Shown: positions 6,396-32,589 of the stretch, piece after piece
Layout: the number at the start of each line of letters is the position of its first letter
How positions within the stretch are numbered: position 1 is the first letter of the stretch
IMG/VR virus record: IMGVR_UViG_3300048839_000432
Location: 1-41,433 of that record
Origin: a virus
Length of the DNA stretch: 41,433 nucleotides
Direction: 5' to 3' (one strand)
Notes under the pieces: generated by a model
Databases searched by the model: none
What the model was told of the DNA's origin: nothing
What the model saw: only the letters and a program-made list of their open reading frames with translations
Program-made: the position numbers and the translations under genes

Positions 6396-6403
6396 TATAT
6401 TTG
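6396..6403 (+). promoter_or_regulatory. Promoter of a predicted small RNA
   Basis: TATATTTG, a perfect TAnnTTTG box with no ORF start nearby. The predicted start is near 6410 and a strong terminator ends at 6482. Confidence 0.6.
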
Positions 6404-6409
6404 CATCGA

Positions 6410-10852: not shown

Positions 10853-10860
10853 TACATTTG
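10853..10860 (+). promoter_or_regulatory. Host-type -7 box
   Basis: TACATTTG, 22 bp upstream of ATG 10883. Candidate promoter for the small membrane protein and the terminase genes. Confidence 0.55.
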
Positions 10861-13767: not shown

Positions 13768-13955
13768 TGAGTAATGAGTTGGGTGGTTATCTTAGCGTAT
13801 TTAATCTCGCAAAGGACATACAACATATTGCAGCTATCTACGGACGTAAAGACAAGGTAACTGACTATAATGTTATTGAAATATTTATGTACTTAAATTG
13901 CAAGAATTGGAACGATGCAATAGTTAGTGGAGCGAATGAGATTTACTCTAAATAA
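13207..13955 (+). CDS. Probable tail-assembly chaperone, -1 frameshift fusion (249 aa)
   Basis: join(13207..13671, 13671..13955). The -1 frame is open through the overlap (begins DFRQTLVARFPKVFENSNS) and runs into the small gene whose own ATG is at 13767, ending SGANEIYSK. This is the lambda G/GT arrangement: the short form and the fusion, with the T-like part binding the tail tube. A T-count sequencing error would also produce the appearance of a fusion, in which case only the long form exists. Confidence 0.6.
13665..13671 (+). promoter_or_regulatory. Slippery heptamer TTTTTTG for -1 frameshift
   Basis: In frame as T TTT TTG, inside a run of nine T. After slipping -1 the reading continues from GAC 13671 with no stop to 13955. 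It fits the X XXY YYZ rule. Confidence 0.65.
13767..13955 (+). CDS. Small ORF, normally the C-terminal part of the frameshift product, 62 aa
   Basis: It has its own ATG overlapping the stop of the upstream gene (TAATG), so separate translation by coupling is possible. Sequence such as VFNLAKDIQHIAAIYG is helical. It is in the same frame as the -1 extension, so it is best read as the T part of the chaperone. Confidence 0.6.
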   Translation: MSNELGGYLSVFNLAKDIQHIAAIYGRKDKVTDYNVIEIFMYLNCKNWNDAIVSGANEIYSK

Positions 13956-13969
13956 TTATTTCAAAAAGT

Positions 13970-14004
13970 GAAACACTTTTATTAAAATACAATAGTAAAA
14001 TTGC
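13970..14004 (+). promoter_or_regulatory. Phage late promoter copy 1
   Basis: GAAACAC (13970-13976), exactly 19 nt, TAAAATTGC (13996-14004), then 6 nt to ATG 14011. Same architecture as copies 2 and 3. Confidence 0.75.
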
Positions 14005-14010
14005 TGTTGT

Positions 14011-14496
14011 ATGTTAGAGCCTCTTATACTTGCCTTTCAAGAAATTTCTCTTAGCCACAAAGCGGTTGAGCGATTTTATCATGGCTTAGAGAATGAAGAA
14101 AATCCCGACTATGAGCAGAAATATCCTGCGGTAATAATGTTACCTGCTTCTATCAATCATTCGTTTGTCAACGGTCAACTAAACATTACCTACAACTGCA
14201 TATTCCAAGTATTAGACATACTGCCCGAAGATAGAAGTACAACGGATATTCGAGAGGGATTAGTAAAAACAAGCGATATATGGAAAGATATTATTTCACG
14301 CTTTATTATTGAATATAAGGGCGAAGAAAAAACAATTAATAGTAAGCTGTATCAAATGAATTTTGAAGTTGAAAACAGCACAGCAAATGCACTTGTAGAT
14401 TACCAAACATATAATAAGATTGGTTACGAGATTACGCAGCCATTTACGATAAGTATTAACGCAAACTATTGTTTAACTGAACAACTTTTTAGCTAA
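14011..14496 (+). CDS. Probable tail completion/neck protein, 161 aa
   Basis: First gene after late promoter copy 1. Mixed alpha/beta, with a helical start (MLEPLILAFQEISLSH) and beta-rich end; size and position next to a gp10-like gene fit a tail terminator or neck protein. No family is certain. It ends in TAATG overlapping the next gene. The predicted transcript starts at or near the ATG. Confidence 0.65.
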   Translation: MLEPLILAFQEISLSHKAVERFYHGLENEENPDYEQKYPAVIMLPASINHSFVNGQLNITYNCIFQVLDILPEDRSTTDIREGLVKTSDIWKDIISRFIIEYKGEEKTINSKLYQMNFEVENSTANALVDYQTYNKIGYEITQPFTISINANYCLTEQLFS

Positions 14497-14972
14497 TGAA
14501 TAATACTTTAGATACCTTAAAGAATGTATTGCAGAGCAAAGGCGAAGTAATGGTATCGGCTATTCAAAAAGATTTAGACCACAAAAAAAGCAATACCACA
14601 AGTACGCTAAGCAAGTCGCTAAGATTTGTAACTTCTATTGGTAGTACGTCAGTAACAGGCACGTTATACGCGGAGGATTATTTTGTGTTTGTGAATGAAG
14701 GTCGTGGACCGGGCAAGATGCCACCACATGACCCCGACAAAGGCATTACTCCGATATTAGATTGGGTAAGAGCAAAACCAGTATCATATACCGATATTTC
14801 AGAAAGCAGTTTAGTTTATCTTATTCGCAGAAAGATAGGAAAAGAAGGAACAAAAGGAACTAAAGTATTTACAACCAACACAAATATTTTTGCGAATAGC
14901 ATAAATAAAGACGTTTCAGCACATCTTATGAAAGGCTTTAAAAACGATATTAAAGAACAAATAAAAAAATAA
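14496..14972 (+). CDS. HK97 gp10-like head-tail joining protein, 158 aa
   Basis: Helical N-terminus, then beta-rich middle with TGTLYAEDYFVFVNEGRGPG (about 54-73) and a PPHDP loop, typical of HK97-gp10-like proteins at the head-tail junction. Coupled to the gene before it by TAATG. C-terminal basic helix DIKEQIKK. Confidence 0.68.
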   Translation: MNNTLDTLKNVLQSKGEVMVSAIQKDLDHKKSNTTSTLSKSLRFVTSIGSTSVTGTLYAEDYFVFVNEGRGPGKMPPHDPDKGITPILDWVRAKPVSYTDISESSLVYLIRRKIGKEGTKGTKVFTTNTNIFANSINKDVSAHLMKGFKNDIKEQIKK

Positions 14973-14995
14973 ATAACAATTAAAAAAACACAATC

Positions 14996-15442
14996 ATGGG
15001 AGTAGTAGTAAATCATTCAATCCAAACACAATTAGTAGATGCAGACAGCAATACTAACTACGATGTTCAATACACATTTACCGATAGCGTTACCAACGCT
15101 GATGCACTTACACAAAAGATGTTGCTAACTACAACAGGCGTAACGATATTTACTATTGGTGCGAGAGCCGCAGGAGCACAATACACGAACTTTAAAAACA
15201 TTGTAATTAAAAATCTTTCGACTACTGAAAGTGCTTTGATAAACTTTGTTGATACTGGTGCATTTGTTATTGGGTATGTTATACCTCCGGGTAAGGTTAT
15301 GTGCTTACCAGCACCAGTAATATACGCTAATGCAGGTGGTAGTACTTCATTTAGTGCCGCAGGTTACACAAGCATTGATACCATTCAAGGCGGTGCGAGT
15401 GGCGATTGCTTAGTGGAAGTTTCAATTATTGCAAGTCGCTAA
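14996..15442 (+). CDS. Virion structural protein, beta-rich, 148 aa
   Basis: Ser/Thr/Ala/Gly-rich beta protein with VIYANAGGSTSFSAAGYTS near residues 107-125, typical of decoration or tail-associated proteins. No catalytic motif. It is in the late operon, 23 bp after the gp10-like gene. Exact role unknown. Confidence 0.65.
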   Translation: MGVVVNHSIQTQLVDADSNTNYDVQYTFTDSVTNADALTQKMLLTTTGVTIFTIGARAAGAQYTNFKNIVIKNLSTTESALINFVDTGAFVIGYVIPPGKVMCLPAPVIYANAGGSTSFSAAGYTSIDTIQGGASGDCLVEVSIIASR

Positions 15443-15445
15443 TGT

Positions 15446-17008
15446 ATGCCAGTAGATACAGGAGAACCTACTGCACCAGTAGAGGGGTTGACAAACACGC
15501 CAACACCACCGACTAATGTAAATATAGGATTGCCGAACTTCTTACAAGTTCCTATCTACACCGATGTATTAGCGGTGTATAACCCTATTGTTTATCATTT
15601 ATCGCAGCCTGTTTACCCTTATGACGGAACACTAAAGACTGTAACGTATATGAGGGTGGTAAACCAAAACGAAACAGGCTACTATGGGTTGGGAGGCAAC
15701 GAGGTTTATATCGAATTGTCGGCAGCACTTAATTTCCCTGCAAAAAATAGTAAATTAAATTTTACAACAGGAACTCTTTACAAAGGACTTTACAGAATTA
15801 AAGTAACAGTAAGTCCTTCTAAATTCATTATTGATACAGCATTTATAGGAAGCGAAACAGGAAATTTAGTTGGTAAATATTTAGAGAATTTCAAAGTACT
15901 TACAAAAATAGTCAAAGGAACAGATGAGCATACGATGTACGCTTACCCTGATGAAGCTAATAAATTCTACTTCGATATTGCTCCTTATTGCTCAACTCTT
16001 TTAACGCACAAATTATTAGATGCAGTACCCACAGCGTTATTAACGAGAGATGAAAATAACATTGGGCTATTCGTAATTACCCACGCATGGCAATACATAG
16101 ACTATGATGGTAATGGATTGCAGTATAGAAAGGAAAGCAGCTTTGGAAGTTTACATTCTATTCACGCAGTAAACACTCATTTGCAATACGTGGTAAGTGA
16201 GCAGTTGCAAATAACGGACTCAACACTTACGCTCAATGATTATGTTGCAGTTTACAATAGTGCGTTCCCTGCGAAATTCTTAACCTTTTCGCCACGAACA
16301 ATAAATATAAGCGAAGATGAAAGCTACCAACTTTCATTCTATAAAGCAGCGTTTCCAACGGCTGTAAATTGGGTAGTGCAAGTTGATTATTATGACAGCG
16401 ATGGAGTGTACATATCCAACGAAACAGAAACGCTACCATACAGCAACGATAAGCAGTTGTGGGTAATAAGTTGCGGTATGAGTTATCTTACCGTACCAGC
16501 AAACTGTTCTTATTACAATGTGTACATTGAAACGGAAACAGAACCTGCAAAACCAATGATTACAGAAACATTTAGGTTTAATGTTAAGGATAAATGTGGG
16601 GATAGTGTTCGCGTACTTTGGCAAAACAAGATGTTAGGTATTGACGGATTTACTTTCAATGGTAAGATTTCACGCAACGAAAAAACAAGCAGAAAAGAAA
16701 GTAAAAGGCGAATGAACTATCTTAGGACAATCGGAGAGAAAGAATGGAACACCTACTCAATAAATACTAGTGTTGAATATACTATAAATTCAGGATTGGT
16801 AAATAGAGTAACAAGGGAATGGCTAAGAGAGATATTATCTTCAACTAATCTTTGGTGGGAAATAAATAGCGAAGATGGCGAAGTATTAAGATTGCCGATA
16901 AGAATAACGAGCGATAATTTTAGCAGCATTGACACAAATGATGAAGCGATACACAATATTGTCTATACGTTCAGTATGTCTTATGATGAGATAAACAGAA
17001 ATGGTTGA
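15446..17008 (+). CDS. Minor tail (distal tail/baseplate-like) protein, 520 aa
   Basis: Proline- and threonine-rich N-terminus (about 1-30) followed by long beta-rich domains. It overlaps the next gene by 8 bp, and the pair sits directly upstream of the tape measure gene. Size and place fit a Dit- or baseplate-type protein; the family is not identified from sequence alone. Confidence 0.65.
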   Translation: MPVDTGEPTAPVEGLTNTPTPPTNVNIGLPNFLQVPIYTDVLAVYNPIVYHLSQPVYPYDGTLKTVTYMRVVNQNETGYYGLGGNEVYIELSAALNFPAKNSKLNFTTGTLYKGLYRIKVTVSPSKFIIDTAFIGSETGNLVGKYLENFKVLTKIVKGTDEHTMYAYPDEANKFYFDIAPYCSTLLTHKLLDAVPTALLTRDENNIGLFVITHAWQYIDYDGNGLQYRKESSFGSLHSIHAVNTHLQYVVSEQLQITDSTLTLNDYVAVYNSAFPAKFLTFSPRTINISEDESYQLSFYKAAFPTAVNWVVQVDYYDSDGVYISNETETLPYSNDKQLWVISCGMSYLTVPANCSYYNVYIETETEPAKPMITETFRFNVKDKCGDSVRVLWQNKMLGIDGFTFNGKISRNEKTSRKESKRRMNYLRTIGEKEWNTYSINTSVEYTINSGLVNRVTREWLREILSSTNLWWEINSEDGEVLRLPIRITSDNFSSIDTNDEAIHNIVYTFSMSYDEINRNG

Positions 17009-19076
17009 GTTAATTTTAAATAAAAATTATGTTGAATTACAACCGCAGGAGTTAGGAATTAGAATAACAAAAGCGGTCAACGATATTAGCAACCCAAGCC
17101 GTAGGCAAGGGAGTTACAGCAACACCATTACCATTCCTAAAACAAAAAACAACGATAAAATATTTCAGCATATCTATAACTTGCAATCCGTTTCAGATAT
17201 TGTAAATAAAAAAAACGAGGCGATACTAAAGAATAACGGAACGGTTGTAATGAAAGGCTTTTTAAAGGTTGAAAAGATTTACACCGATGGGTACGAATGT
17301 ACTGTTTATGCAGATAATGCAGATTGGTTTGCGAAGTTAGAAAACATAGAACTGAAAGATTGTATTAACGATAATTTTCCATATTCAGCTAATAATATAT
17401 TCGACAGTTGGAACAAAAACAGCAACACCGCTAACATCTTTTTTCCATATTTACAAATCAATGGCAGCCTAGAAGAAAGTATGTTGATTAAAAATTGGAT
17501 TCCTTTTTTTTATGTTCGATATTTGTTAAAGTCAATCTTCGGAACGATAGGTTATATGCTTAACGATACTTTTTTTAACAAGCCTATAATCTCTGAACTT
17601 GCATTGTCAGGAAGTCAAGAAAAATTAAAAGCTCCAACAGCATGGAAGAACTTGCACGTTGCAACAGCAACAGGAATAGGGCAGCACACATACACATATC
17701 CAAGTCCAGGAGTGTACACTACATTGCCGTTTATTAATCCGTATTTTTATCAGATTACAAACGCAAATATTGATTGGACGTTTGGAGGTAACAATGATTA
17801 TTACTACCCCCAAGAAACAGGAAAATACAAAGCAACAGTGTACACGCAGGTAGAACACGATGTGAATATCGGAGTACAAACAAACAATTACAGACTTGAT
17901 GAAACTTTAAACGTAGTAGTAGGTAGCACGTTATTGAACGAGAAAATCGCTACGGCAGAACAAATAATTTATAAAAGTTATCCGGGCGTTCAAACACCGT
18001 CCGATATTCTATACACCAAGTTTACTGTATCGTTTGAATTTGAAGCTACGCAAGGCGATGCACTCGCATTTTACATTGAAAGAAATATTAGAAGCACAGA
18101 AGATAATTCAAGCGATATACATATCTGTAACATGACACTAATTGATTGTGTTATTACTATAACGCCATTAGACGTTGAGTTACCATTTGGCGAGTTGTTG
18201 CCACTTAAAGAAGCAGCACCAGACATTAAGCCAAAAGATTTTATTTCTTCTTTAGCAAACACATTTAATTTAGTGATGGAAGAAAAGGACGGAGAGGTAT
18301 TAATGTTGCCTCAAGATGAATATTATCTAAGTCCACAAGATGCGGAGGATTGGACGGACAAAGTAAGCGTTGATGAAGATTATACTATTACACCGCTTTC
18401 AACAATGTTTGGCAAAAACTTTTTATTCAAACATAAACAAGCGGATTTAGGTTCATGGAACAGCACCTCAGCAATAAAAGAAAAATTAGAGTTCATAAAA
18501 TATTATGGGGATAACGTAGAATTTAACCCCAACGAAAACGCAACCGAAGATACAACCATTGCACAAACAAATTTCTACACACCGAAAACTACTTTATACA
18601 ATGAAGTGCAAAACGGTTTTCAATGGGCTTTAGAAAACACAAATATAAAAAGAAACTTCGGTAGCTACTACCCTTACTTAGTTTTCAAAGGACTTGTAAA
18701 AGAAGGAGCAATACAATACAAGCAGAACGTCAACGGTAGTGCGATAAATAGGTTTTCTTACCTCCATGTTTTCACAAGCAAAAACCAACAGAGTGATGGT
18801 AGTTTATTATTTGCGAATAAATCAGATTACGGCTTCGGCTACATAGTAGCAGGGCTTACGGAGTTGTATTATTCCAACACGCTAAGAAGAATGAAAGAGG
18901 GTAGTATGATTGAATGTAGCGTGAAATTAAACGATAGCGATATTGAAGCGTTATCATTTCGCAAACCAAAAATTATTCAAACGCCACAAGGGAAAATATT
19001 AGTGATATTAAATAAGGTCAAGGAATATGAGGTGGGCGAAAATCAATTAACGAAATGTGAATTTATAACATATTAA
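17001..19076 (+). CDS. Minor tail (tail-associated/baseplate) protein, 691 aa
   Basis: Begins MVELILNKNYVELQPQELGI and carries the SNTITIPKTKNNDKIF segment near residues 41-56, a pattern of baseplate-type proteins in Bacteroidetes siphoviruses (recalled, not searched). Beta-rich throughout. Adjacent to the tape measure gene (3-bp gap). Probably a receptor-proximal tail component. Confidence 0.65.
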   Translation: MVELILNKNYVELQPQELGIRITKAVNDISNPSRRQGSYSNTITIPKTKNNDKIFQHIYNLQSVSDIVNKKNEAILKNNGTVVMKGFLKVEKIYTDGYECTVYADNADWFAKLENIELKDCINDNFPYSANNIFDSWNKNSNTANIFFPYLQINGSLEESMLIKNWIPFFYVRYLLKSIFGTIGYMLNDTFFNKPIISELALSGSQEKLKAPTAWKNLHVATATGIGQHTYTYPSPGVYTTLPFINPYFYQITNANIDWTFGGNNDYYYPQETGKYKATVYTQVEHDVNIGVQTNNYRLDETLNVVVGSTLLNEKIATAEQIIYKSYPGVQTPSDILYTKFTVSFEFEATQGDALAFYIERNIRSTEDNSSDIHICNMTLIDCVITITPLDVELPFGELLPLKEAAPDIKPKDFISSLANTFNLVMEEKDGEVLMLPQDEYYLSPQDAEDWTDKVSVDEDYTITPLSTMFGKNFLFKHKQADLGSWNSTSAIKEKLEFIKYYGDNVEFNPNENATEDTTIAQTNFYTPKTTLYNEVQNGFQWALENTNIKRNFGSYYPYLVFKGLVKEGAIQYKQNVNGSAINRFSYLHVFTSKNQQSDGSLLFANKSDYGFGYIVAGLTELYYSNTLRRMKEGSMIECSVKLNDSDIEALSFRKPKIIQTPQGKILVILNKVKEYEVGENQLTKCEFITY

Positions 19077-19079
19077 GTC

Positions 19080-21512
19080 ATGGCAGAAACAGTCGCATTT
19101 AAGATAATATTAGAAACAGAAGCAGCTAAGAAAGCAGCCAACGAACTTACTCATGCCTTAGAACGAGATAAGGAAGCATTGAAGCAAGTGCGTAAAGAGG
19201 CGAAAGAAAACGGAACGGTAACGCATGAGATGGCAGCACGTATGCGAGAGTTGCAAACGTCTATACGTGGAAGCAGTACGCAGTTAAGAGAGTACCATAA
19301 CAATCTTTCGGGAGCAACAGCAAGTGGCATGAGGTTTAGAGATAAGATGGGAGCAGCGTTTGGCGATGGGCTGAAAAGCATGGCATTGAATTTTGTTGGA
19401 GTAACGGCAGTAATCGGTGGGTTAGTAGCAGCGTTCAAAGGAGCAGCAAAAACGATAATAGAGTTTGAAAAAAGCATTGCAGAATTATCATCTATTACAG
19501 GAGCAACAGGAAAAGATTTAGATATACTAAAACAAAAAGTTCTTGAAGTATCACGAAGCACGAGCAAGTCAGCGAATGAAGTAGCAACTGCATTTAAGTT
19601 AATCGGTAGTGCGAAACCTGAACTATTAGCCAATGCCGATGCTTTAGCACAAGTATCAGAACAGGCTATAATATTAAGTAAGGCAAGTGGATTAGATTTA
19701 GCGGTAGCTTCCGAAGCGTTAGCAAAGGCAATGAACCAATACGGAGCAGGTGCGGAAGATGCTGCAATGTTTACGGATATTCTTGCAACTTCGCAACAAA
19801 AAGGAACAGCACCAATTGAAAAGTTAAGCGAAAGTTTAAAAAATGTAGGTAGTGTTGCTAAAGCTAGTGGCATAAGTTTTGAAACGACAAATGCTTTATT
19901 GCAGGGCTTAGCGAAAGGCGGCTTAGATGGAGCAGAGGCAGGGACTAAACTAAGAACAATTTTATTAAGATTAGCGAAAACAGGTAGAGATGATTTGAAC
20001 CCTGCAACGCAAAACTTCAACGATATATTGAACGTGCTTAGCACAGAGGTAACAGATGTTACTAAAGCACAGAACTTATTTGGCGAAGAAGCAGCCGCAG
20101 CAGCATTGACGTTGATAGACCAAAGAGAGCAGGTAGAAAAGTTAAACGGAGCGTTGTACGAGCAAGGCAACGCATTAAAACAAGCGGAAACGAATTATGA
20201 TACTATTGCAGGGAAATGGGAAAAGGTTGGAGTGGCTTGGGATAATTTTATTTTAAGTTTTGAAGATGGTAGCAATGTTTTGTCAGGTGGGGTTAAAAGT
20301 TTTTTAGACGGCATAGAAAATATTATTAGTGGGTTAACTAATCTTCTTGACTTTTCGGGCATGGCAAGTGAAAGTCTAGCAAAGTTTGGTAACGATTATT
20401 TAATGGCATTAACAGGCATTGATTTAGGAGTTAAAGGAGTAGATGAAAGCATTAAGAAAGTTACGCAATCATTTAGCAAGTTAACAGATGACCAACTGCG
20501 GAGCGAATCAACACGCAAAGCGGTAATTAAAGCATACATTGATTTAGGCATGACTGCCGAAGAAGCGGCAAAGAAATACGTTGGTTTGTTAAAGTCAAAA
20601 AAAGAAATAACGCCAGTAGAAGAAAAAGAAGTTGAAGCGATAAATAAAAACACCGATGCCACAAAAAAGAATACCGAAGCGAAAAGAGAAAAGTACGAAT
20701 TAGAAAAAATTATTGCAAAAGATTTAATTGTAAACTTTGAAACTGAAACAGTTTTAGAAAACAATAAGCTGGACGAAGAAATAAGACGTAAGGAAGAACT
20801 AGATGCAGCCAACGAAGTATCGTATGCTAAGAACGCACAGTTAGCCCAAGCAGCGTTTGAGCAATTTAAGAAAAACGAAGAAGAAAAGAAATTACTGCAA
20901 GAAGCAAATATACAAAACGCAATAGCAACTACTGCTAGTCTTGGCGACCTCGCTAACAGCTTTGCAATGCTATCAAAGGCAGGTAGTGAAACACAACGAA
21001 AGTTCGTCATTGCAAGTGTATCGTTGAACCAAGCGGCAGCATTATCAAACGCCATCGTAAGTGCCACAAGCCCCACAAACCCTGCCAACTTGCTAACAGG
21101 TGGAATTGCTTCAATACCTACTTACATCGGTTTAGCAGCACAGATAATAGCATCTTTCGCTCAAATAAAATCATTAATTGGAAATAAGTCAGGCTTTGCA
21201 GAGGGCGGTTATACAGGCGACGGTGGCAAGTACGAACCAGCAGGGGTAGTGCATCGAGGGGAGTATGTAGTACCTAAACATATAACCCACAATCCTGTCT
21301 ATCAGCCAATAATTAGCACACTTGAAAATGCACGTATGCGAGGTTATGCAGGTGGGGGAATGGTAAACACTAGACCGCAGATAGACCAGTCGATAATTCA
21401 GGCAAAACTTTTTGCAGATGAAATAAAAAATATGCGTATATTTACAAGCGTTACAGACATTCAAAGCGGTATAGCAAGAAGAAACAATATAGTAAATACT
21501 TCAAATTTATGA
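19080..21512 (+). CDS. Tape measure protein, 810 aa
   Basis: N-terminal coiled-coil (about 10-75), hydrophobic stretch GLKSMALNFVGVTAVIGGLV (about 96-115), then the TP901-type tape-measure core (SANEVATAFKLIGSAKPE, LLQGLAKGGLDGAEAGTKLR), a lysine/glutamate-rich helical middle, a hydrophobic SIPTYIGLAAQIIASFAQIK segment and the FAEGGYTGDGGKYEPAGVVH tail typical of phage tape measures. Length implies a siphovirus tail of roughly 120 nm by the usual 0.15 nm per residue rule. It ends ATGA, coupled to the small HTH gene. Confidence 0.93.
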   Translation: MAETVAFKIILETEAAKKAANELTHALERDKEALKQVRKEAKENGTVTHEMAARMRELQTSIRGSSTQLREYHNNLSGATASGMRFRDKMGAAFGDGLKSMALNFVGVTAVIGGLVAAFKGAAKTIIEFEKSIAELSSITGATGKDLDILKQKVLEVSRSTSKSANEVATAFKLIGSAKPELLANADALAQVSEQAIILSKASGLDLAVASEALAKAMNQYGAGAEDAAMFTDILATSQQKGTAPIEKLSESLKNVGSVAKASGISFETTNALLQGLAKGGLDGAEAGTKLRTILLRLAKTGRDDLNPATQNFNDILNVLSTEVTDVTKAQNLFGEEAAAAALTLIDQREQVEKLNGALYEQGNALKQAETNYDTIAGKWEKVGVAWDNFILSFEDGSNVLSGGVKSFLDGIENIISGLTNLLDFSGMASESLAKFGNDYLMALTGIDLGVKGVDESIKKVTQSFSKLTDDQLRSESTRKAVIKAYIDLGMTAEEAAKKYVGLLKSKKEITPVEEKEVEAINKNTDATKKNTEAKREKYELEKIIAKDLIVNFETETVLENNKLDEEIRRKEELDAANEVSYAKNAQLAQAAFEQFKKNEEEKKLLQEANIQNAIATTASLGDLANSFAMLSKAGSETQRKFVIASVSLNQAAALSNAIVSATSPTNPANLLTGGIASIPTYIGLAAQIIASFAQIKSLIGNKSGFAEGGYTGDGGKYEPAGVVHRGEYVVPKHITHNPVYQPIISTLENARMRGYAGGGMVNTRPQIDQSIIQAKLFADEIKNMRIFTSVTDIQSGIARRNNIVNTSNL

Positions 21513-21748
21513 AAAGTTTTTTAGATGAATTTGCAGAAATAGTAAGCGGTAAGAATACCAACGAAATGGTAAATATTCTTAAATGTTCCTTACCGCACAG
21601 AGAAAAACAAAAGATAGTTATTAGAGAAAAATTCAAACAAGAATATCGTAATAGCAATAGAAGTGAGCGTGATGTTATTCTTGATTTAGCAGCAGAGTTT
21701 AACATCGGACAAACTACCGTTTGGCGAATAGTGAAAAGCTGCAAGTAA
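21509..21748 (+). CDS. Small helix-turn-helix protein, 79 aa
   Basis: The C-terminal part RSERDVILDLAAEFNIGQTT (about 54-73) then VWRIVKSCK is a clear HTH (recognition helix TVWRIVKS). Such domains appear in transposase-like and regulator proteins. It overlaps the tape measure stop by 4 bases and lies 16 bp before late promoter copy 2, so it is a candidate late regulator; this is inference from position. Confidence 0.72.
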   Translation: MKSFLDEFAEIVSGKNTNEMVNILKCSLPHREKQKIVIREKFKQEYRNSNRSERDVILDLAAEFNIGQTTVWRIVKSCK

Positions 21749-21764
21749 AATAATTCCAATTTTT

Positions 21765-21799
21765 GAAACACTTAATTTTTTAATGTAGCTTAAAATTGC
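21765..21799 (+). promoter_or_regulatory. Phage late promoter copy 2
   Basis: GAAACAC (21765-21771), 19 nt, TAAAATTGC (21791-21799), then only 3 nt to ATG 21803. A leaderless transcript is predicted. Confidence 0.75.
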
Positions 21800-21802
21800 T
21801 AC

Positions 21803-22831
21803 ATGAAAAATATTGAGATAAGAAACCAAACTGAAAACACAGTAGATATTTATGTGTTGGGAGTTATTGGCGAAACATTCTCAGCATCTGAATTTATTTA
21901 TCAGATGAATTACTTTAAAGATTACTCAATTAATATTCATATTTTTTCTCCAGGTGGATTAGCCTTTGAAGCACTTGCTGTTTACGACTTCGTGAAAGGG
22001 CAAGGAATAAAAGGAACAGTTTACATTTACGGATTGGCCGGAAGTGCAGCAACAATTATAAGTTCTGCATTTGACAAAGTTTTGATTGGCGAAAATTCTA
22101 AATTCTTTATACACCATGCTTACGGCGGCAGCGACAAAGGACTTGCAGATGTTAACGAAACTATTGTAAATATTTATAAAAACAAAACAGGCTTACGAAA
22201 AGACACTATCATTAAGTTGATGAAAGCAGGAGATGACGGAGATTTTATGAACGCAGCTAAAGCGAAAGAATTAGGCTTTGTAAACGGAATCTTCAAAGAA
22301 GATAGCATCAACAACGAGTTTGAAGATGCTTATAATATTGCAGCAAATTTTGATATTAATAACTACAAAAATAAATATATGGAAAACGAAACATTTTTAG
22401 ACAAAATTCTAAATCGTATCAACGATGGTTTTGTAACTAAATCAGCACACGAAGAATTATCAAACGAATTTAACGCTTTGAAAGAAGAACAAAAAAAGTT
22501 TGATGATGAGAAAAAAGATTTTGAAAACACAATAGTAAACTTAACAGAAACTATTGCTACAAAAGAAAATGAAGCACAAGAAATTCAAAACAATCTTACT
22601 ACTGCAAACGCTACTATTGAAGCAATGAAAGCAGAGAAGCAAGTACAAGTTGATATTGTAAAAGAAAAAGAAATAGAGATTGAAAACTTGAAAGCAGAGA
22701 TTGAAGAACTTAAAAAAGAGCCTGTAAGTACAACCGTAACAGCGACTGCTACGAATAGCACCGCAACTGCTACGCCTGTATTTTCAAGTGCTAGAGAAGA
22801 AAAAAGAAAATTCCTTTTAGGAAACAAATAA
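21803..22831 (+). CDS. ClpP-like prohead protease fused to scaffold, 342 aa
   Basis: The protease part (1-190) has FSPGGLAFEAL (48-58), the nucleophile in YGLAGSAATI (S81) and FIHHAYGG (102-109, catalytic His), as in ClpP/S14 phage proteases. Residues 193-305 form a long charged coiled coil (scaffold), and the C-terminus is a Thr/Ala-rich tail. An in-frame ATG at 22379 (residue 193, MENETFLDKI) could give a separate scaffold protein. It cleaves scaffold during capsid maturation. Confidence 0.9.
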   Translation: MKNIEIRNQTENTVDIYVLGVIGETFSASEFIYQMNYFKDYSINIHIFSPGGLAFEALAVYDFVKGQGIKGTVYIYGLAGSAATIISSAFDKVLIGENSKFFIHHAYGGSDKGLADVNETIVNIYKNKTGLRKDTIIKLMKAGDDGDFMNAAKAKELGFVNGIFKEDSINNEFEDAYNIAANFDINNYKNKYMENETFLDKILNRINDGFVTKSAHEELSNEFNALKEEQKKFDDEKKDFENTIVNLTETIATKENEAQEIQNNLTTANATIEAMKAEKQVQVDIVKEKEIEIENLKAEIEELKKEPVSTTVTATATNSTATATPVFSSAREEKRKFLLGNK

Positions 22832-22863
22832 AAAAAGTATAAACAATTTAAAAAAAAATAAAG

Positions 22864-23826
22864 ATGGCAACATTTGATTTAGGTGCACTTAGTGCATACA
22901 CAAAAGAAAACGCAGGGGAATTATTAGACAAGTCTTTCCTATCCCTTGACACAGTAGCAGTAGCTAATATGTTAGAAGGACAGAAATACAAAGCAAAATT
23001 CCCAATGTGGACAGATGACGATTACGATGTATTACAAGCAGGTAATACTTGTACTCCAACATCTAAGGGCGAGTTCGCAATTGGGCAGTACGATGTAGAA
23101 GTTGTTCCTGTAAGATTGTTTAAGGACTTTTGTACAAAAGAATTACGAACATACTTCACTAATCAGTACTTACCATTAGGTGCGATGAATGAAAAAGAAA
23201 ACCTACCACAAGGATTAGGTATCGTGCAACACGCATTGAAGAAATGGACTGAAAGTATTGAAGTAGCTTTACATCATGGCGAAGCAGGTGGTGCTAGTAC
23301 TATCTCGTCTTTAAATTTATTTGACGGTTATATTACTCGTATAAACGATTTAATTACCGCGACTACTATTCCTTCGGCACAAGTAACATCTGCTATCATA
23401 ACGCAAACTAACGCTGTAAGCACATACAACACAGCAGTAGATACACTACCTGCTAAAGTTTACGCACAGGCGATTGCAGGTGCTAACTGGATATGTATAT
23501 GCGACCCTGCGGTGGCAATGGCATATAGCAGAAACATTATGCTTACTTACGGAGCAAACAGCGAGTATGCAAGATTAAGCCAAAATGTTATCATGGGTAC
23601 AAACATTAGATTTGTTCCAGTAGCAGGTTTAATAGGCACAGGACGTTCATTCATATTGAACAAAGATACTTTTTGGATTGCAACGGACTTAGAAAAAGAT
23701 TGGGCTAACATCGAAGTAACTCAAGGAACAGGCAGCGAAAAAGATTTAATTTTTGTTGATTGTGAAATTAAAGTTGGCACATTCATTCAAAACCCTGAAT
23801 ACGTACTACCAGTAGGACGTTGGTAA
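22864..23826 (+). CDS. Major capsid protein, 320 aa
   Basis: It directly follows the protease-scaffold gene and is followed by a terminator. Its order and size (320 aa) fit an HK97-fold capsid. The segment LYFDVA-like strands at TFDLGALSAYTKENAGELL and the end QNPEYVLPVGRW are of the type seen in Bacteroidetes capsids. No delta-domain is visible beyond the fused scaffold upstream. Confidence 0.82.
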   Translation: MATFDLGALSAYTKENAGELLDKSFLSLDTVAVANMLEGQKYKAKFPMWTDDDYDVLQAGNTCTPTSKGEFAIGQYDVEVVPVRLFKDFCTKELRTYFTNQYLPLGAMNEKENLPQGLGIVQHALKKWTESIEVALHHGEAGGASTISSLNLFDGYITRINDLITATTIPSAQVTSAIITQTNAVSTYNTAVDTLPAKVYAQAIAGANWICICDPAVAMAYSRNIMLTYGANSEYARLSQNVIMGTNIRFVPVAGLIGTGRSFILNKDTFWIATDLEKDWANIEVTQGTGSEKDLIFVDCEIKVGTFIQNPEYVLPVGRW

Positions 23827-23862
23827 TAAAAGATTTTTTTAGTTCTCGCTTAGTTTTTAGTT

Positions 23863-23894
23863 AAAAAGAGTAGGGTGTAAAAGCCCTACTTTTT
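23863..23894 (+). terminator. Intrinsic terminator after the capsid gene
   Basis: Stem GTAGGG / CCCTAC (23870-23875 and 23884-23889) with a short loop and T5 tail, flanked by A5. It lies between the capsid and tail-tube genes and may give the capsid a transcript of its own. Confidence 0.8.
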
Positions 23895-23950
23895 GAAAAA
23901 AGAGAAAAAAAATAAACAATAAAAAATAACAAAATTAAAAAAAAAATATT

Positions 23951-24502
23951 ATGGCAAGTTGCATCATAACATCAGGAATTATAAAGCCATCGTGTGCCGA
24001 CAAGTTCGGAGTACCTGGCGTACAATCTTCAAAAATCTACATTGCAAACTTCGACCAAGTGGCATTTACCGAAACTACTCCCGGATTAATTGATGGTATC
24101 AGTTTCGACTTCTCTTATAGTGGAATGTACGTTATGGAGTTGCACGACAATACTATCAACTTCACAGAGGAATTAGTATCAGGAGAAACCGCAGGAAGCT
24201 ATTACAACCAAACATTCTTAGGACGTACTATTAATACTTCAAATGATACTCGTAGTACCGTAGAAGATTTGATAGACGTTCCCGTAATTGTACTTTACAA
24301 AACAAAAAAAGGACAATGGTGGGTAGTAGGAGAAAGTGGAGGCGTGAAGCTAACAGGCGACACTACTACGGACGGAGCAAAGACAGGCGATGAAACAGGA
24401 ACGCTACTAACATTTACAGGAGTGAACAACGGAAAGCGTAAGCAGTTCTACAACACCTCAGATGCTAATACCGATGCGTTGGTTGAAGGTTATGTACTTT
24501 AA
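23951..24502 (+). CDS. Probable major tail tube protein, 183 aa
   Basis: Begins MASCIITSGIIKPSCADKFG, with beta-rich body ending ALVEGYVL. Position after the capsid and the GISFDFSYSG / GVNNGKRKQFYN segments fit the tail-tube type of Bacteroidetes siphoviruses. The Ig-like tail is absent. It would form the stacked hexamer rings of the tail tube around the tape measure. Confidence 0.68.
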   Translation: MASCIITSGIIKPSCADKFGVPGVQSSKIYIANFDQVAFTETTPGLIDGISFDFSYSGMYVMELHDNTINFTEELVSGETAGSYYNQTFLGRTINTSNDTRSTVEDLIDVPVIVLYKTKKGQWWVVGESGGVKLTGDTTTDGAKTGDETGTLLTFTGVNNGKRKQFYNTSDANTDALVEGYVL

Positions 24503-24515
24503 TAAAAACTAAACT

Positions 24516-24731
24516 ATGAACGAGAAAGAAACTAAAAAAAACAAATTCATCATTGAAGAAGAACAAGCTGAAAAGCCTATGCCTAAAGAAAAGGTAAAGC
24601 GTTATCGGTTTAAGAATGGAGTAGCAAAAATGACTTATAAAGGAAGTGTTATCGAAGCGATACACCTAACCGAAAATGTTGTAAAATTGTACGCAAAAAC
24701 TCCAATCGGTTTCTTCATTGAAGAATATTAA
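24516..24731 (+). CDS. Hypothetical late protein, 71 aa
   Basis: Charged N-terminus (MNEKETKKNKFIIEEEQAEK) and a beta-like C-terminus ending FIEEY. It lies 13 bp after the tail tube gene, and its end overlaps the TTG start of the next gene by 14 bp. Perhaps a tail-accessory or head fibre anchor; unknown. Confidence 0.65.
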   Translation: MNEKETKKNKFIIEEEQAEKPMPKEKVKRYRFKNGVAKMTYKGSVIEAIHLTENVVKLYAKTPIGFFIEEY

Positions 24732-25401
24732 AATCTACCAAATCTACTTCGATAAGAAGCAGAGATTAGATACATATTTTAGCCCTGTTTTCAATCCATT
24801 GCGGAATGATGACAGGGCTAAATATTTGGAAACAGATATTATCGCAGGGCTTATAGAACAAGGCAAACACAAGGAAGCGGATTACTTCGGAGTAGTGAGT
24901 TATAAGTTCAAAGATAAGACAGGACTAAGAGGCAATGATATTGATTTTTACATCAACAAAAACGAAGCCGATATTTATTCTTTCTTCGGGCATACCAAAG
25001 CACAATATCAAGAATGGAAGCACGTAAATTTATGGGAGAGGGATAAGGTTTGGCATCCGTTACTCTATGATATTGGAGTAAAACTATTCGATAAATTAGG
25101 GCATGACATCAGGACGTTATCAATGCCAGTTATCTATTACAACTATTGGATTGCGAAATCAGAAATTGTAGAAGAATTTTACAATGAAATTTTGAAGCCC
25201 TCAATAGAAATAATGGAAACAGAATTAGCAGAAATGTGTATGCAAGATAGTATGTATCCTTATGCTAAGAGAGTTGATTTAGAAAGAGTAAAACAAATGT
25301 TTGGAGTGCCTTATTTTACTTACCACCCGTTTGTTTGTGAGCGTTTATTTCCTACATTTGTGGCACTAAAAAATAAGTATAAACTATTAAATATAAGATG
25401 A
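24718..25401 (+). CDS. Glycosyltransferase-like protein, 227 aa
   Basis: First gene of a five-gene sugar-related run. A TTG start at 24718 is used because no ATG precedes the conserved part. Contains YQIYFDKKQRLDTYFSPVF and a C-terminal segment FVCERLFPTF. It looks like a capsular/glycan-associated hypothetical. Assigned by neighbourhood with two clear glycosyltransferases; the fold is unproven. Confidence 0.5.
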   Translation: MKNIKIYQIYFDKKQRLDTYFSPVFNPLRNDDRAKYLETDIIAGLIEQGKHKEADYFGVVSYKFKDKTGLRGNDIDFYINKNEADIYSFFGHTKAQYQEWKHVNLWERDKVWHPLLYDIGVKLFDKLGHDIRTLSMPVIYYNYWIAKSEIVEEFYNEILKPSIEIMETELAEMCMQDSMYPYAKRVDLERVKQMFGVPYFTYHPFVCERLFPTFVALKNKYKLLNIR

Positions 25402-26117
25402 GATTTTTCATTGTAGTAACAGGCTATAATTGTGCTAACAAAGTTCAAGAATGTTGGCAAAGTTTAATCGGTCAAACGTATGATAATTGGACGGCATGGT
25501 TTATTGATGACGGCAGCACAGACGGTACAGCGATTGAGATAAATAAATTAACTCACGTAAATAAAATTCTTTGCCAAGAAAATTTAGGAGCAGCAAAAAG
25601 GCGTTATGACGTAATACACGAACACGCTAAAGATACTGATATTATAGTGTTGTTAGGCATGGACGATAAATTAAGATTAGATGCGTTGGAGGTTGTAAAG
25701 AAACATTACGATAATGGTAAGAGTATGACGTATGGCAATTGGGTTAATCAAAACGGAGTAGGATTGCCAGTAGATTTTAGTTTAGAGTTTGAAGAAATAA
25801 TACACGAACATAGAAGTTACAGAAAAGTAAAATATAGAAGTACAGCATTAAACACGATGTATGCGTGGATATTTAAGAGAATAAAAAAAGAAGATTTTAT
25901 TTATAAAAGTAGTTGGATTAAAGCAACTACTGAAAGCCCGACAATGTTCGCAGCCTTAGAGATGTGCGGAAAGGAAAAGATAGGAATAGTTTACGAGCCG
26001 ATTTATATCTATTATCAAGGCAGAGAAGATAATGCTCGAAATAGATTTGGAGCAAACTATCAAACAGAAATTTATAACCATGTAATTAATCTACCTAAAT
26101 ATTATGCGTGTTCTTAA
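25398..26117 (+). CDS. Family 2 (GT-A) glycosyltransferase, 239 aa
   Basis: The N-terminus (MRFFIVVTGYNCANKVQECW) and WFIDDGSTDGTA (34-45) are the nucleotide-sugar site of GT2 enzymes. A DD pair in LLGMDDKL (about 84-91) fits the metal-binding position. It likely transfers a sugar to a virion or host component. Overlaps its neighbours by 4 and 14 bp in one operon. Confidence 0.88.
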   Translation: MRFFIVVTGYNCANKVQECWQSLIGQTYDNWTAWFIDDGSTDGTAIEINKLTHVNKILCQENLGAAKRRYDVIHEHAKDTDIIVLLGMDDKLRLDALEVVKKHYDNGKSMTYGNWVNQNGVGLPVDFSLEFEEIIHEHRSYRKVKYRSTALNTMYAWIFKRIKKEDFIYKSSWIKATTESPTMFAALEMCGKEKIGIVYEPIYIYYQGREDNARNRFGANYQTEIYNHVINLPKYYACS

Positions 26118-27000
26118 CTTATGCAGCCATGACTACGCTAACTTTTCGCATGATAACGCAAATGCGTTGCGTAGTGTAGGCGTTGATTGTATTGATATAA
26201 AAGGCTTTCCACATGAATTTAACTATGAAACAGAAAGCACTATTTACGGATTCGATTTGTTGAATGAGGAATTTAAAAAGGCAGATGTGATACAGCTAAT
26301 GCACTCCGATTTAAACTTAGCACGTTATATTTCACAAAACAAAAGACGTTCACAAAAGTATTGCGTATGGCATACAGGAACAGCGTACAGGCAGCAGCCT
26401 GACAGATATAATAGGTTGTTCAATGCGATGTGCGATAAAGTGTTTATTGCGTTGGGCGAGTTTGCAAACATGGGAGCGAAGAACGCTCAATATTTAGTAG
26501 GGGCAATAGATACAGAAAGAATACAAGCAGACATAAATGGAAGCAAAGTAATAGGACATTACCCAAGTAACATTGATAATAAAGGAACGGTAATGGTAGG
26601 TAGGTTAGTACGTCAATGCGGTTATGGGCTTGACTTAAAAACAGAAAAGGTAAGTTATAAAGAACAGTTAAAACGATATGATAATTGCGGAATTTATATC
26701 GAAATGTTTAATTTAAAACAACGATTACAGCCTTACGGCAGTTGGGGTATTACGGCACTTGAAGCAGCGTGTAAAGGGCGTGTAATAATAACAAATCAAA
26801 ATAATAATGAGTATTCAAAAGTTTATGGAAATACGGAGTTATTGATTTGTAATAATGAAAAAGAATTTAAAGAAAGGTTGCAGGGCGTTATGAATATTGA
26901 CATTAAAGAAAAGCAGATTGCAACAAGGAAATGGGTAGAAGAAAACCACAGCTATAAAGCCGCAGGAGAAAGACTAAAAAATATACTACATGGACTATAA
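26104..27000 (+). CDS. GT-B (family 4-like) glycosyltransferase, 298 aa
   Basis: An N-terminal Rossmann-like half (MRVLNLCSHDYANFSHDNAN), then a C-terminal half with PYGSWGITALEAACKGRVII (210-229), the E-containing donor-binding motif of GT4-like enzymes. Shorter than typical GT4 enzymes (~370 aa), as in many phage versions. Overlaps the methyltransferase gene by 11 bp. Confidence 0.82.
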   Translation: MRVLNLCSHDYANFSHDNANALRSVGVDCIDIKGFPHEFNYETESTIYGFDLLNEEFKKADVIQLMHSDLNLARYISQNKRRSQKYCVWHTGTAYRQQPDRYNRLFNAMCDKVFIALGEFANMGAKNAQYLVGAIDTERIQADINGSKVIGHYPSNIDNKGTVMVGRLVRQCGYGLDLKTEKVSYKEQLKRYDNCGIYIEMFNLKQRLQPYGSWGITALEAACKGRVIITNQNNNEYSKVYGNTELLICNNEKEFKERLQGVMNIDIKEKQIATRKWVEENHSYKAAGERLKNILHGL

Positions 27001-27526
27001 AGAAAAATTAAAAGATTTCAACAGCACCGAAAAATATAAAGAAGAAATGCAATTTATTTGCGATTTACTGGAGTTAAACGACAACGATAGCGTGTTGGAT
27101 TACGGTTGTGGCATTGGTACGCTATGCGAGAAGATACAAGGGTATGGAGTGAGTTGTGTAGGTTATGATAAGACAAGATTTGTAGATGAAGAAAAAACAT
27201 ATTTCGTTGACAATTTAGAAAAATATTATTTCTCAAAAGTAATATTCATGCACTCTTTAGCACACATCGAAAATCCTGTTTTAGTTTTATCGGAACTAAA
27301 AAAACGAGTGTTTGAAAACATTATCGTAGTAACTCCGAACAAAGATTGGTTGGAATTAAATAGCAACCCTAACTATATTCCAGACCCTACCGTTGTTGAA
27401 CATTTTACTTTATATTCTCTTACGACATTGTTTTTAAAATGCGGTTTTAAAATAAATCAGGTAGGGCAATTTGGAAAACAAACGGCAAACCAAAACGAAA
27501 GACTATTTATAAAAGTAAGCGTATGA
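26990..27526 (+). CDS. Class I SAM-dependent methyltransferase, 178 aa
   Basis: Motif I VLDYGCGIGTLCEKI (35-49), then VSCVGYDKTRF for the second strand and ILVFMHSL-type hydrophobic strand (KVIFMHSLAHIENPV). The short length and neighbours suggest methylation of a sugar (capping) on a glycan. It lies between two sugar genes with 4-base overlap to the next. Confidence 0.85.
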   Translation: MDYKEKLKDFNSTEKYKEEMQFICDLLELNDNDSVLDYGCGIGTLCEKIQGYGVSCVGYDKTRFVDEEKTYFVDNLEKYYFSKVIFMHSLAHIENPVLVLSELKKRVFENIIVVTPNKDWLELNSNPNYIPDPTVVEHFTLYSLTTLFLKCGFKINQVGQFGKQTANQNERLFIKVSV

Positions 27527-28260
27527 AATTAGCAGCTATCTACACCTTATGGGATTACGGAATGTTAGAGCAATCTTACAAGCATATACGACCGTATGTT
27601 GATGGAGTAATATTTTCGCATCAACACTACTCAAATCATTACAAAGAGTGCAACGAGGTACGCCCACAATTAGAGGGCGATTGGATTAACTATGTGCCGA
27701 ATGGAGTATGGAACGCAAAGAGAAACGAAAGAATAAAATATTTACAAGCCATTGATTATGCACGTAGCAAGGGCTACACGCATTTTATTTTAATGGCACA
27801 CGACCATTTTTATAAGGCAGAAGAAATTGAATTTGCTAAAAAATTAGTAATAGAAAAGGGATATAAAAATACTGCAACACGAATGTTTACTTATTACAAA
27901 TATCCTACATGGCAAGTAACGCCTATTGAAGATTATTATATGCCATTCATTACCGAGATAACACCACAGATTACTATAAGGCATGGCATCTATCCAGTTT
28001 ACGTTGACCCTGCTTGTTGCTTCTTTCCGAGCAATAATTTTTATGAGTTCAAACAAGAAGAAGTAATGCTACACCATTACAGCATGGTAAGGAAAGACAT
28101 ACGTAAGAAGTTTGAAAATGCGGCAAGTAAAATAAATTGGATTGGCAAGATTGATAGCTTGGTTGAAGAACATGACAATTATCATATCGAAGAAAAAAAA
28201 GACTTACAATATTTTACAAACAGAACAGTAATTGAGGTATATAATTATTTCAATATTTGA
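27523..28260 (+). CDS. Glycosyltransferase-like protein, 245 aa
   Basis: Starts MKLAAIYTLWDYGMLEQSY, resembling sugar-processing proteins in which a DxD-type motif follows; here the comparable segment is FILMAHDHFYKAEE (about 88-101). Ends just before late promoter copy 3. Assigned by similarity of layout to GT-A 'glycosyltransferase family 92/2-like' proteins; moderate certainty only. Confidence 0.6.
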   Translation: MKLAAIYTLWDYGMLEQSYKHIRPYVDGVIFSHQHYSNHYKECNEVRPQLEGDWINYVPNGVWNAKRNERIKYLQAIDYARSKGYTHFILMAHDHFYKAEEIEFAKKLVIEKGYKNTATRMFTYYKYPTWQVTPIEDYYMPFITEITPQITIRHGIYPVYVDPACCFFPSNNFYEFKQEEVMLHHYSMVRKDIRKKFENAASKINWIGKIDSLVEEHDNYHIEEKKDLQYFTNRTVIEVYNYFNI

Positions 28261-28293
28261 AACACAAAAATAAAAGAGTTTAATTAAAATTGC
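28259..28293 (+). promoter_or_regulatory. Phage late promoter copy 3
   Basis: GAAACAC (28259-28265; its first two bases are the end of the previous stop codon), 19 nt, TAAAATTGC (28285-28293), then 6 nt to ATG 28300. Confidence 0.75.
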
Positions 28294-28299
28294 CTTTGT

Positions 28300-29583
28300 A
28301 TGGAAAAGCTAAAAGAACCAAGCGTTATCATTCTGAAGTTAGACGAACTAAAGACTAATGATGCAAAGGAAATTACCAAGCGTAATACTCCTTATGTTTA
28401 CTTTGGCGAGGATAATTTATATCCGCAATACTTAGTTGAGTTGTACGATAGCGTAGCGGTGCATTGCTCGATGTTACAGATATTCCGTAGGTTTTTAATT
28501 GGCGATGCGTACAATATTGAGGGTAACGAAGCGGCAACGGAAAACTTTTTTAACGAAGTTGGAAACGGACTTTCAAATATTATATCAGACCTTGCCACAT
28601 CATATACGTTTTTCGATAATTCTTATGTGAACGTAGTACCAAGCAGAGGCGGTGGCATTGGCAGAATAGCGGTATTAGATGGTAGTTCAGTACGCACAGG
28701 ACAAATAAACGACTTTGCAACAGGAGTAGAAAATTATTATTGGAGTTTAGATTGGCGAAAATCCACAGGGCGTAAGAACTTTTCAATGCCTGAATTTAGA
28801 ATTTACGAACCTAAAGAAGTTCCTGCGTTTAACCCTAACAAGCCGCTAAGAGGAAGTAAGAACGGTTATATTTGGGAAAATAAGCTATTCCAAAAACCAA
28901 CACAAATATACTACACTACACCACGTTATAATGGTGCGGTAAACGATTTAGAGAAAGCTGCGAGAGTTTCTAACTTGATGAAAAACATGATTAAAAACGG
29001 AATGGCAGGTAACACACACATTCACGTTTACGAGGATTTATCGGACATTGACAAACAGGAAAGAGTTTTAGAAGGGTTGAAGAAAAGATTTGCAGGGGAT
29101 AGCAATGCAGGGGAGATAGTATTGACATGGAGTACAGGGGCAGACGGAAAGCCCGAAGTGAATAACTTACCTACTAACAATTCGCATGAGATGTTTGATT
29201 TCATGGCAAGAAATATAAACGAAAACTTAATTACAGCAAATCAAATACCACCTTTCTTAGCGAACATACAAGTAAAGGTAGGCTTAGCCGACAGCGGAAA
29301 AGCGATACGAGAAAGTTTAGAGTATTTCCAAAATATTACCATACTTCCTTACCAAAAAAAGATAGAAAATATCTTAAATACTTTGTTGGAGTTGAACGGA
29401 ATTAAAAGCAAAATAAGTTTAGTTGAAAGCACCCCTTTCAGCTTCCTGTCAAGCGATGACATGATGAAACACTCAATGACAGTAAGGGAATATAGAGAGA
29501 GGATATTGCAGTTAGAAGAAGATTTTAAGGTAGAGGATTTAATGATTAACGCTACAAAAACAGCAACCGATGGCACTAATTAG
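28300..29583 (+). CDS. Portal protein, 427 aa
   Basis: The N-terminal TPYVYFGEDNLYPQYLVELY (29-48), a mid segment with beta-strands, and the C-terminal crown with IPPFLANIQVKVGLADSGKA are typical of portal proteins of Bacteroidetes phages. It is the first gene after late promoter copy 3 and overlaps the DUF6712-like gene by 14 bp. It forms the dodecameric DNA gate at the capsid vertex. Confidence 0.85.
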   Translation: MEKLKEPSVIILKLDELKTNDAKEITKRNTPYVYFGEDNLYPQYLVELYDSVAVHCSMLQIFRRFLIGDAYNIEGNEAATENFFNEVGNGLSNIISDLATSYTFFDNSYVNVVPSRGGGIGRIAVLDGSSVRTGQINDFATGVENYYWSLDWRKSTGRKNFSMPEFRIYEPKEVPAFNPNKPLRGSKNGYIWENKLFQKPTQIYYTTPRYNGAVNDLEKAARVSNLMKNMIKNGMAGNTHIHVYEDLSDIDKQERVLEGLKKRFAGDSNAGEIVLTWSTGADGKPEVNNLPTNNSHEMFDFMARNINENLITANQIPPFLANIQVKVGLADSGKAIRESLEYFQNITILPYQKKIENILNTLLELNGIKSKISLVESTPFSFLSSDDMMKHSMTVREYRERILQLEEDFKVEDLMINATKTATDGTN

Positions 29584-30061
29584 CGAACAAGAAATAAAAG
29601 ATTTTACGGATTTAAACAACAACGTAAACGCTAAAAGATTTTCGCAATACATTGATATTGCAGAGAAGAGAGATATACGTTCTTTAATTTCAAAACCTCT
29701 CTATGACCGATTAATACAGGGAGTTGAAGATAACGACCTTACAACTGATGAAGATAATTTGATTGAAAAAATTAAACCAGCGTTGGCATGGTGGGTATTA
29801 TATAGAGCCTTACCAGCGTTACATTCGCAGATTACACCAACAGGAATACAAACAAAAACAAGCAATGATGGCGAGGCGGTAGATAGTAAGATATTAGATA
29901 TAAGAATGAAGAACGCATTAGCACAAGCAGAATTTTACAGCGAAGAAATGCGATGTTGGTTAGTAGAGAATTACGCTTTATTCCCTGAATTTATGCAGAG
30001 CGATTGTTGCGACTTAAACAAAAAAACAAACGGCTACGGTAAAAGTGGTATCGTTTTTTAA
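29570..30061 (+). CDS. DUF6712-like head-tail connector, 163 aa
   Basis: Begins MALISEQEIKDFTDLNNNVN; this type follows the portal gene in Bacteroidetes phages (DUF6712). The helical PALAWWVLYRALPALHSQI segment is characteristic. It probably sits between portal and tail as an adaptor. The start lies in the end of the portal gene. Confidence 0.75.
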   Translation: MALISEQEIKDFTDLNNNVNAKRFSQYIDIAEKRDIRSLISKPLYDRLIQGVEDNDLTTDEDNLIEKIKPALAWWVLYRALPALHSQITPTGIQTKTSNDGEAVDSKILDIRMKNALAQAEFYSEEMRCWLVENYALFPEFMQSDCCDLNKKTNGYGKSGIVF

Positions 30062-30071
30062 ATAAAAAATT

Positions 30072-31882: not shown

Positions 31883-31885
31883 GAC

Positions 31886-32386: not shown

Positions 32387-32388
32387 AG

Positions 32389-32589
32389 ATGAAACACAAC
32401 ATTGAAGCACTCATAACGAAGTCGGGATTGTTGCTCGGAAGTATTACAGCTACAATGACTTTGGCAAGTATTGATTTGATATTAGCTATTGCGTTAAAGT
32501 CAATTAGTATAGTATCGTTTCTAATAGTTATTGGAATAAATCTCGAACAATTTATCGAAAAAATAAAGAAGTTATGCAAAAGAAAATAA
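32389..32589 (+). CDS. Holin-like membrane protein, 66 aa
   Basis: Two hydrophobic segments (about 11-32, LLLGSITATMTL... and 35-50, SISIVSFLIVIGINL) and a basic C-terminus (KIKKLCKRK). It is directly upstream of a second membrane protein and the endolysin, the usual place of a class II holin. It would open the inner membrane to release the endolysin. Confidence 0.72.
   Translation: MKHNIEALITKSGLLLGSITATMTLASIDLILAIALKSISIVSFLIVIGINLEQFIEKIKKLCKRK

Follow-up and report, generated by a model that had tools for sequence, protein, structure and literature searches.

Three repeated late-promoter candidates with near-leaderless geometry in a presumed Bacteroidota phage, and the repeated boxes that its relatives carry at these junctions

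Late gene blocks and three copies of a bipartite motif

The window, which is the whole stretch of 41,433 nucleotides analyzed here, is an IMG/VR virus record, and the host of the virus appears to be a member of the Bacteroidota. Its two ends (2-217 and 41174-41431, minus strand) seemingly carry one ParB-like gene, with a DGQHR motif at the left end, which suggests that the genome is circularly permuted and, apart from a small gap, nearly complete; a few hundred bases within this gene are probably missing from the record. Based on PHROG matches, the late genes form three blocks:

14011..21748 (+), late block 1: tail genes including the tape measure (19080-21512), with a helix-turn-helix (HTH) ORF as the last gene
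21803..28260 (+), late block 2: head maturation protease, capsid (22864-23826), phrog_19091 protein, followed by a cluster of glycosyltransferase/methyltransferase-like genes
28300..33664 (+), late block 3: portal, virion proteins and probably lysis genes (the lysis part as read from the sequence only)

The glycosyltransferase- and methyltransferase-like genes (24718-28260, plus strand) lie in the head block between capsid and portal, and are not part of the gene order of the relatives that we examined. Elsewhere in the window, a gene immediately 3' of the terminase gene (12740-13213, plus strand) encodes a cysteine-rich protein with weak similarity to DUF6171. In the region 6396-6482 (plus strand), a strong intrinsic terminator (10-bp stem and T run) stands no more than ~50 nt 3' of a host-type consensus -7 box (TATATTTG), with no ORF between them; this region is a candidate small RNA of ~75 nt, for which a search against Rfam gave no family match. 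In addition, intergenic elements with strong folding and the pattern [CA]TAACG...TGTTA[GT] stand on the minus strand between small early genes (at about 373-284, 754-663, 1366-1277, 5108-5047, and 37501-37438). These resemble integron attC sites, and the early region may be built of cassette-like genes.

Each late block is preceded by one copy of the bipartite motif GAAACAC-N19-TAAAATTGC. This motif has exactly three exact matches in the window, all on the plus strand (13970-14004, 21765-21799, and 28259-28293), and none in 100 dinucleotide shuffles of the window, which confirms the original prediction of three copies with identical spacing, starting at 13970, 21765, and 28259 only. The same prediction had assigned a late block to each copy, and the PHROG matches agree, with the tape measure in block 1, the protease at 21803, and the portal at 28300. 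The -7 boxes are placed as follows:

13996..14004 (+), promoter 1 -7 box TAAAATTGC: predicted start 14008, ATG at 14011, predicted leader ~3 nt
21791..21799 (+), promoter 2 -7 box TAAAATTGC: predicted start 21803, which is the A of the ATG, predicted leader 0
28285..28293 (+), promoter 3 -7 box TAAAATTGC: predicted start 28297, ATG at 28300, predicted leader ~3 nt

Box and ATG are separated by 6, 3, and 6 nt in copies 1, 2, and 3, respectively, within the 3-6 nt that had been proposed. In every copy, the TAA within the box forms an in-frame stop ahead of the ATG, with no start codon in between, and the next in-frame start lies 42, 17, and 47 codons further on. Given this stop and the lack of a near alternative start, transcription would begin at the ATG or immediately 5' of it, provided that the box works as an ordinary promoter element. 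A fourth TAAAATTGC at 6341 was rejected as a promoter copy, as it has neither the operator described below nor a near ATG. On the minus strand, GAAACAC (as TTGAAACAC) occurs 5' of three early genes (41088, 35646, and 35270), with TTTGAAACAC at 35640 and 35264, in each case without the dyad or the box; counted with one mismatch, TTTGAAACAC shows no excess over chance in the window.

Primary-sigma promoters of Bacteroidota have the elements TTTG (-33) and TAHHTTTG (-7); in F. johnsoniae, the -7 element ends 4-5 nt 5' of the start site with its T at -12, the -33 element is weakly conserved, and 87% of the predicted leaders are longer than 10 nt (PMC6847099). When start sites are placed by this F. 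johnsoniae spacing (PMC6847099), the predicted starts are 14008, 21803, and 28297, with predicted leaders of 3, 0, and 3 nt. The geometry thus agrees with the leaderless transcripts originally proposed, for which near-leaderless is the more exact term, and near-leaderless transcription of the late genes is likely. The -7 box was also correctly described as close to the host consensus, since TAAAATTG departs from TAHHTTTG by a single mismatch, at -8. TTTG is absent near -33 in all three copies, where ACAC stands at that place. The same genome has seven consensus TAHHTTTG boxes shortly 5' of early or middle genes, with predicted leaders of 11-33 nt. Another feature of note for the late genes is the box of the terminase operon:

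10853..10860 (+), host-consensus -7 box TACATTTG: 5' of the terminase operon, predicted leader 19 nt

A conserved dyad block and a candidate activator

The sequence shared by the three copies extends further 5' than the core motif of the original prediction, which itself was exact: in the 20 nt 5' of GAAACAC, 11 of 20 columns are also invariant, a level seen in none of 20,000 triples drawn at random from AT-rich segments of the window (mean 2.3). The block common to the three copies reads A.AAT.ATT.CAA....TGAAACAC, spans 25 bp (-56 to -32), and includes a dyad with 5-bp arms:

13952..13976 (+), promoter 1 operator block A.AAT.ATT.CAA....TGAAACAC: dyad TTTCA-N5-TGAAA at 13959-13973, centre -42
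21747..21771 (+), promoter 2 operator block: dyad TTCCA-N5-TGAAA at 21754-21768, centre -42
28241..28265 (+), promoter 3 operator block: dyad TTTCA-N5-TGAAA at 28248-28262, centre -42

The dyad in copy 2 thus has one mismatch (TTCCA). Its centre has the same offset in all three copies, and the value of -42 depends on the predicted start sites. GAAACAC had been proposed to replace the -33 element of the host; this is correct but incomplete, since GAAACAC also contributes one arm of the dyad in the operator, whose centre lies at -42. When a profile is built from any two of the copies, the third scores 27-34 bits and anything else in the window 17 bits or less. Between the two conserved parts, the spacer has 1 invariant column of 19, which argues against a recent duplication. 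The operator of copy 3 overlaps the last codons and the stop codon of the preceding gene (27523-28260). The dyad is known from one genotype, as the second carrier of the motif (a contig described below) is 100% identical.

The best candidate for an activator that would bind this dyad is encoded at the end of block 1:

21509..21748 (+), 79-aa HTH protein: putative activator

This protein matches phrog_836, annotated as "late transcriptional activator" (E = 7e-4), over its HTH part only, and has no match to PF08765 (Mor family) at E ≤ 10. Its structural model is helical (pLDDT 74), and a fold search of the PDB with this model gave no significant match. The position of the ORF downstream of promoter 1 counts against an activator role. 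The gap 13955-14011 is filled by promoter 1, so that read-through from the terminase operon (10853) could prime the HTH ORF. It is doubtful that this particular protein is the activator, even as the best candidate.

Repeated boxes and a sigma-like protein in related phages

To identify relatives, the terminase proved to be the wrong guide and capsid plus portal the better one, since the closest phages by terminase (59-60%; L050-L053) do not carry the motif and have little else in common with the window. Among more than 470 capsid relatives in IMG/VR, identity does not exceed 29%, with the exception of a 21.9-kb contig that is 100% identical to the window over all stretches compared; this contig is the only other carrier of the motif that we found. 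A scan of IMG/VR for the exact motif returned 45 stretches, and those outside the identical contig were rejected, as they lie inside open frames or are otherwise chance-like.

Several relatives keep the gene order tail, tape measure, protease, capsid, phrog_19091 protein, portal, and have repeated boxes of their own at these junctions. L130, L133, and L135 each carry TGACACA-N14-ATATTTAT three times, 5' of the protease, the scaffold, and the portal block. In the Mucilaginibacter pedocola TBZ30 prophage (L300; the same sequence stands in the IMG/VR record behind L168), AACA[GC]-N13-ATACTTA occurs five times, preceding the tape measure, a tail gene, and the protease, scaffold, and portal-block genes. 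In Nonlabens phage P12024S, AAAACA-N16-CGTTAATA is found at six genes, some with one or two changes, and ends ~4 nt before the ATG. G010 and G002 have TGGCA- and GCACAA-type variants of the box. Across unique upstream sequences, a [TC]AT[AT]TA box that starts 11-14 nt 5' of the ATG is present at 62 of 63 portal-block genes and 54 of 65 protease genes (mean of 2.5 per set after shuffling), counts that are not independent since the upstream sequences are related to each other; at scaffold genes it is present in just 4 of 53. Bipartite words are shared among the late gaps at 42 of 87 loci, compared with 10 of 87 after shuffling.

The original prediction had been staked on the presence of the motif at the same places in related phages. 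Its letters are absent there and the function seems to be kept, in the form of the relatives' own repeated boxes with fixed spacing. We interpret this as turnover of the letters with conservation of the position and of the closeness to the ATG. The upstream block is a different matter: in the 20 nt 5' of the first element, the number of invariant columns is 0 in the M. pedocola prophage, 0 in P12024S, and 2 in G013, all of which have a sigma or sigma-like gene, vs. 11 in the window. The GAAACAC 7-mer is also found in two late promoters of the M. pedocola prophage; since the spacing differs there (AACAC-N13), the match may be a coincidence.

P12024S encodes a protein with a Sigma70_r2 domain (PF04542, E = 1.4e-5) adjoining a VRR-NUC gene, and G010 encodes a 162-aa protein at the matching place, beside its own VRR-NUC-like gene. 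A profile built from four proteins (A3) detects relatives of the latter protein in 22 of the 23 genomes of the group that were tested, and in none of three phages outside it. The structural model of the 162-aa protein (pLDDT 82, pTM 0.45) retrieves nearly only sigma factors at the top of a PDB search, with a best E-value of only ~0.01; its region 4 superposes on region 4 of E. coli sigmaE (1.5 Å, TM 0.77), and 17 viral models match it at E ≤ 0.001, some of which are named sigma factors. This sigma-like protein is widespread in the large phage group and almost escapes detection with Pfam (best match Sigma70_r4_2, E = 0.018). Examples are encoded at:

L303, 5435-5923 (-): sigma-like protein
L302, 1633-2136 (-): sigma-like protein
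L306, 2410-2913 (+): sigma-like protein
L222, 15374-15877 (+): sigma-like protein

Within the window, no match was obtained to PF04542, PF08281, or A3, and a sigma identity for any window ORF is unsupported at the profile level by these or by profile s4. PF04542 does find the P12024S sigma, which is missed by s4 (made from the same four proteins as A3), so the sensitivity of these searches is limited and the window may still encode a very divergent sigma.

Proposed mechanism, alternatives and known systems

Position, exact repetition, and the presence of different repeated boxes at the junctions of the relatives support the interpretation of the three sites as late promoters, and we consider this very probable. 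How they are read is a matter of more moderate expectation; we lean toward activator-dependent promoters read by host RNA polymerase with its primary sigma factor, with the relatives using a phage sigma factor instead. According to this model, a dimeric phage activator would bind the dyad operator and take over the -33 contact, and would recruit host RNA polymerase with the primary sigma, like Mor at the Mu Pm promoter. The predicted start sites, 0-3 nt 5' of the ATG, would make the tail, head, and portal mRNAs near-leaderless. The first HTH protein could come from transcripts that read through from the terminase operon, and positive feedback would then act as the late switch. In related phages, promoters at the same junctions are probably read by a phage sigma factor, in which case the phage of the window would have changed its control factor.

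It is also possible, although rather unlikely in our estimation, that the sites are recognized directly by an alternative (ECF-like) sigma factor of phage or host origin, with GAAAC as -35 and TAAAATTGC as -10 elements, as in the relatives. The sigma-like protein encoded by 22 of the 23 relatives with promoters at the same junctions, its fold matches mostly to sigma factors (best E ~0.01; region 4 TM 0.77), the Sigma70_r2 protein of P12024S, and the two GAAACAC-containing late promoters of the M. pedocola prophage are all consistent with this explanation. However, the four profiles (PF04542, PF08281, A3, and s4) found no such factor in the window, the -7 box is host-like, the 19-nt spacing contrasts with the AACA[GC]-N13, TGACACA-N14, and AAAACA-N16 arrangements of the relatives, and the dyad block 5' of GAAACAC is missing from their promoters.

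An improbable explanation is that the host primary sigma uses the sites as weak constitutive promoters, and that GAAACAC reflects no more than a sequence preference or belongs to a repressor operator. In its favour, the -7 box is one base from the host consensus, the -33 element is weakly conserved in F. johnsoniae (PMC6847099), and the dyad could serve as a repressor site; but the mismatch in the -7 box affects a nearly invariant base (-8), timing control is expected for late genes, and the sites combine at least 26 invariant bases and a fixed spacing with a dyad at the position of a class II activator. Finally, exact repetition at three sites only might reflect repeated binding sites (e.g., for packaging, replication, or segregation) or recent duplications rather than promoters. 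This is very improbable, given the nearly unconserved spacer (1 of 19 columns), the location of all copies 3-6 nt 5' of late ATGs, and the functional counterparts at the same junctions of the relatives.

The system of promoters and sigma-like proteins in the relatives gives the finding its wider value. Promoter maps are now available for one phage and for a group that counts hundreds of members in metagenomes, and we found no description of late promoters in Bacteroidota siphophages in the open-licence literature. Bacteroidota ribosomes work without Shine-Dalgarno pairing, and efficient translation of near-leaderless phage mRNAs by these ribosomes becomes testable. The sigma-fold gene provides a test object, and the cultured lysogen M. 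pedocola TBZ30 is available for such work. Tentatively, and short of an even expectation, we propose that a large group of uncultivated Bacteroidota phages makes near-leaderless late head and portal mRNAs through a sigma-like factor, and that the phage of the window swapped this sigma for a Mor-like activator with promoter positions and geometry kept. If so, the phage would offer a natural example in which control of the late genes passed from a sigma factor to an activator at unchanged promoter positions.

Among known systems, phage Mu offers a parallel: its activator Mor occupies a pair of 5-bp inverted repeats, centred at -43.5, and substitutes for the -35 contact (PMC4390567). Like the window sites, Mu Mor/C promoters have a recognizable -10-type box and no -35-type element (Pm data: PMC4390567), and their inverted repeats near -43.5 compare with the window dyad at -42 in all three copies, as positioned from predicted starts. 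The window differs in its Bacteroidota-type host elements (-33/-7), its near-leaderless geometry, and a candidate activator with no PF08765 match; because of this last point, we do not file the sites as Mor-family, despite the agreement in the other two features. Compared with Bacteroidota primary-sigma promoters, the window sites have a -7 box with 5 of 6 key bases and a compatible N19 spacing, and differ in the absence of TTTG at -33, in the change of T to A at -8, and in a predicted leader of 0-3 nt; with these departures in both elements, they are not canonical host promoters.

Late promoters that depend on phage sigma factors (phiEco32 and 7-11; PMC4331800) are, like those of the window, short, repeated, phage-specific, and located before structural operons, and the sigma-like relatives of the window phage have late blocks at the same gene junctions. 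Unlike them, the window has no detected sigma gene, a longer spacing, and an extra dyad block, so its sites are not a demonstrated sigma-type late promoter. P12024S shares with the window the repeated boxes near the ATG and a portal homologue, and differs from it in encoding a Sigma70_r2 protein and in the letters and spacing of its boxes.
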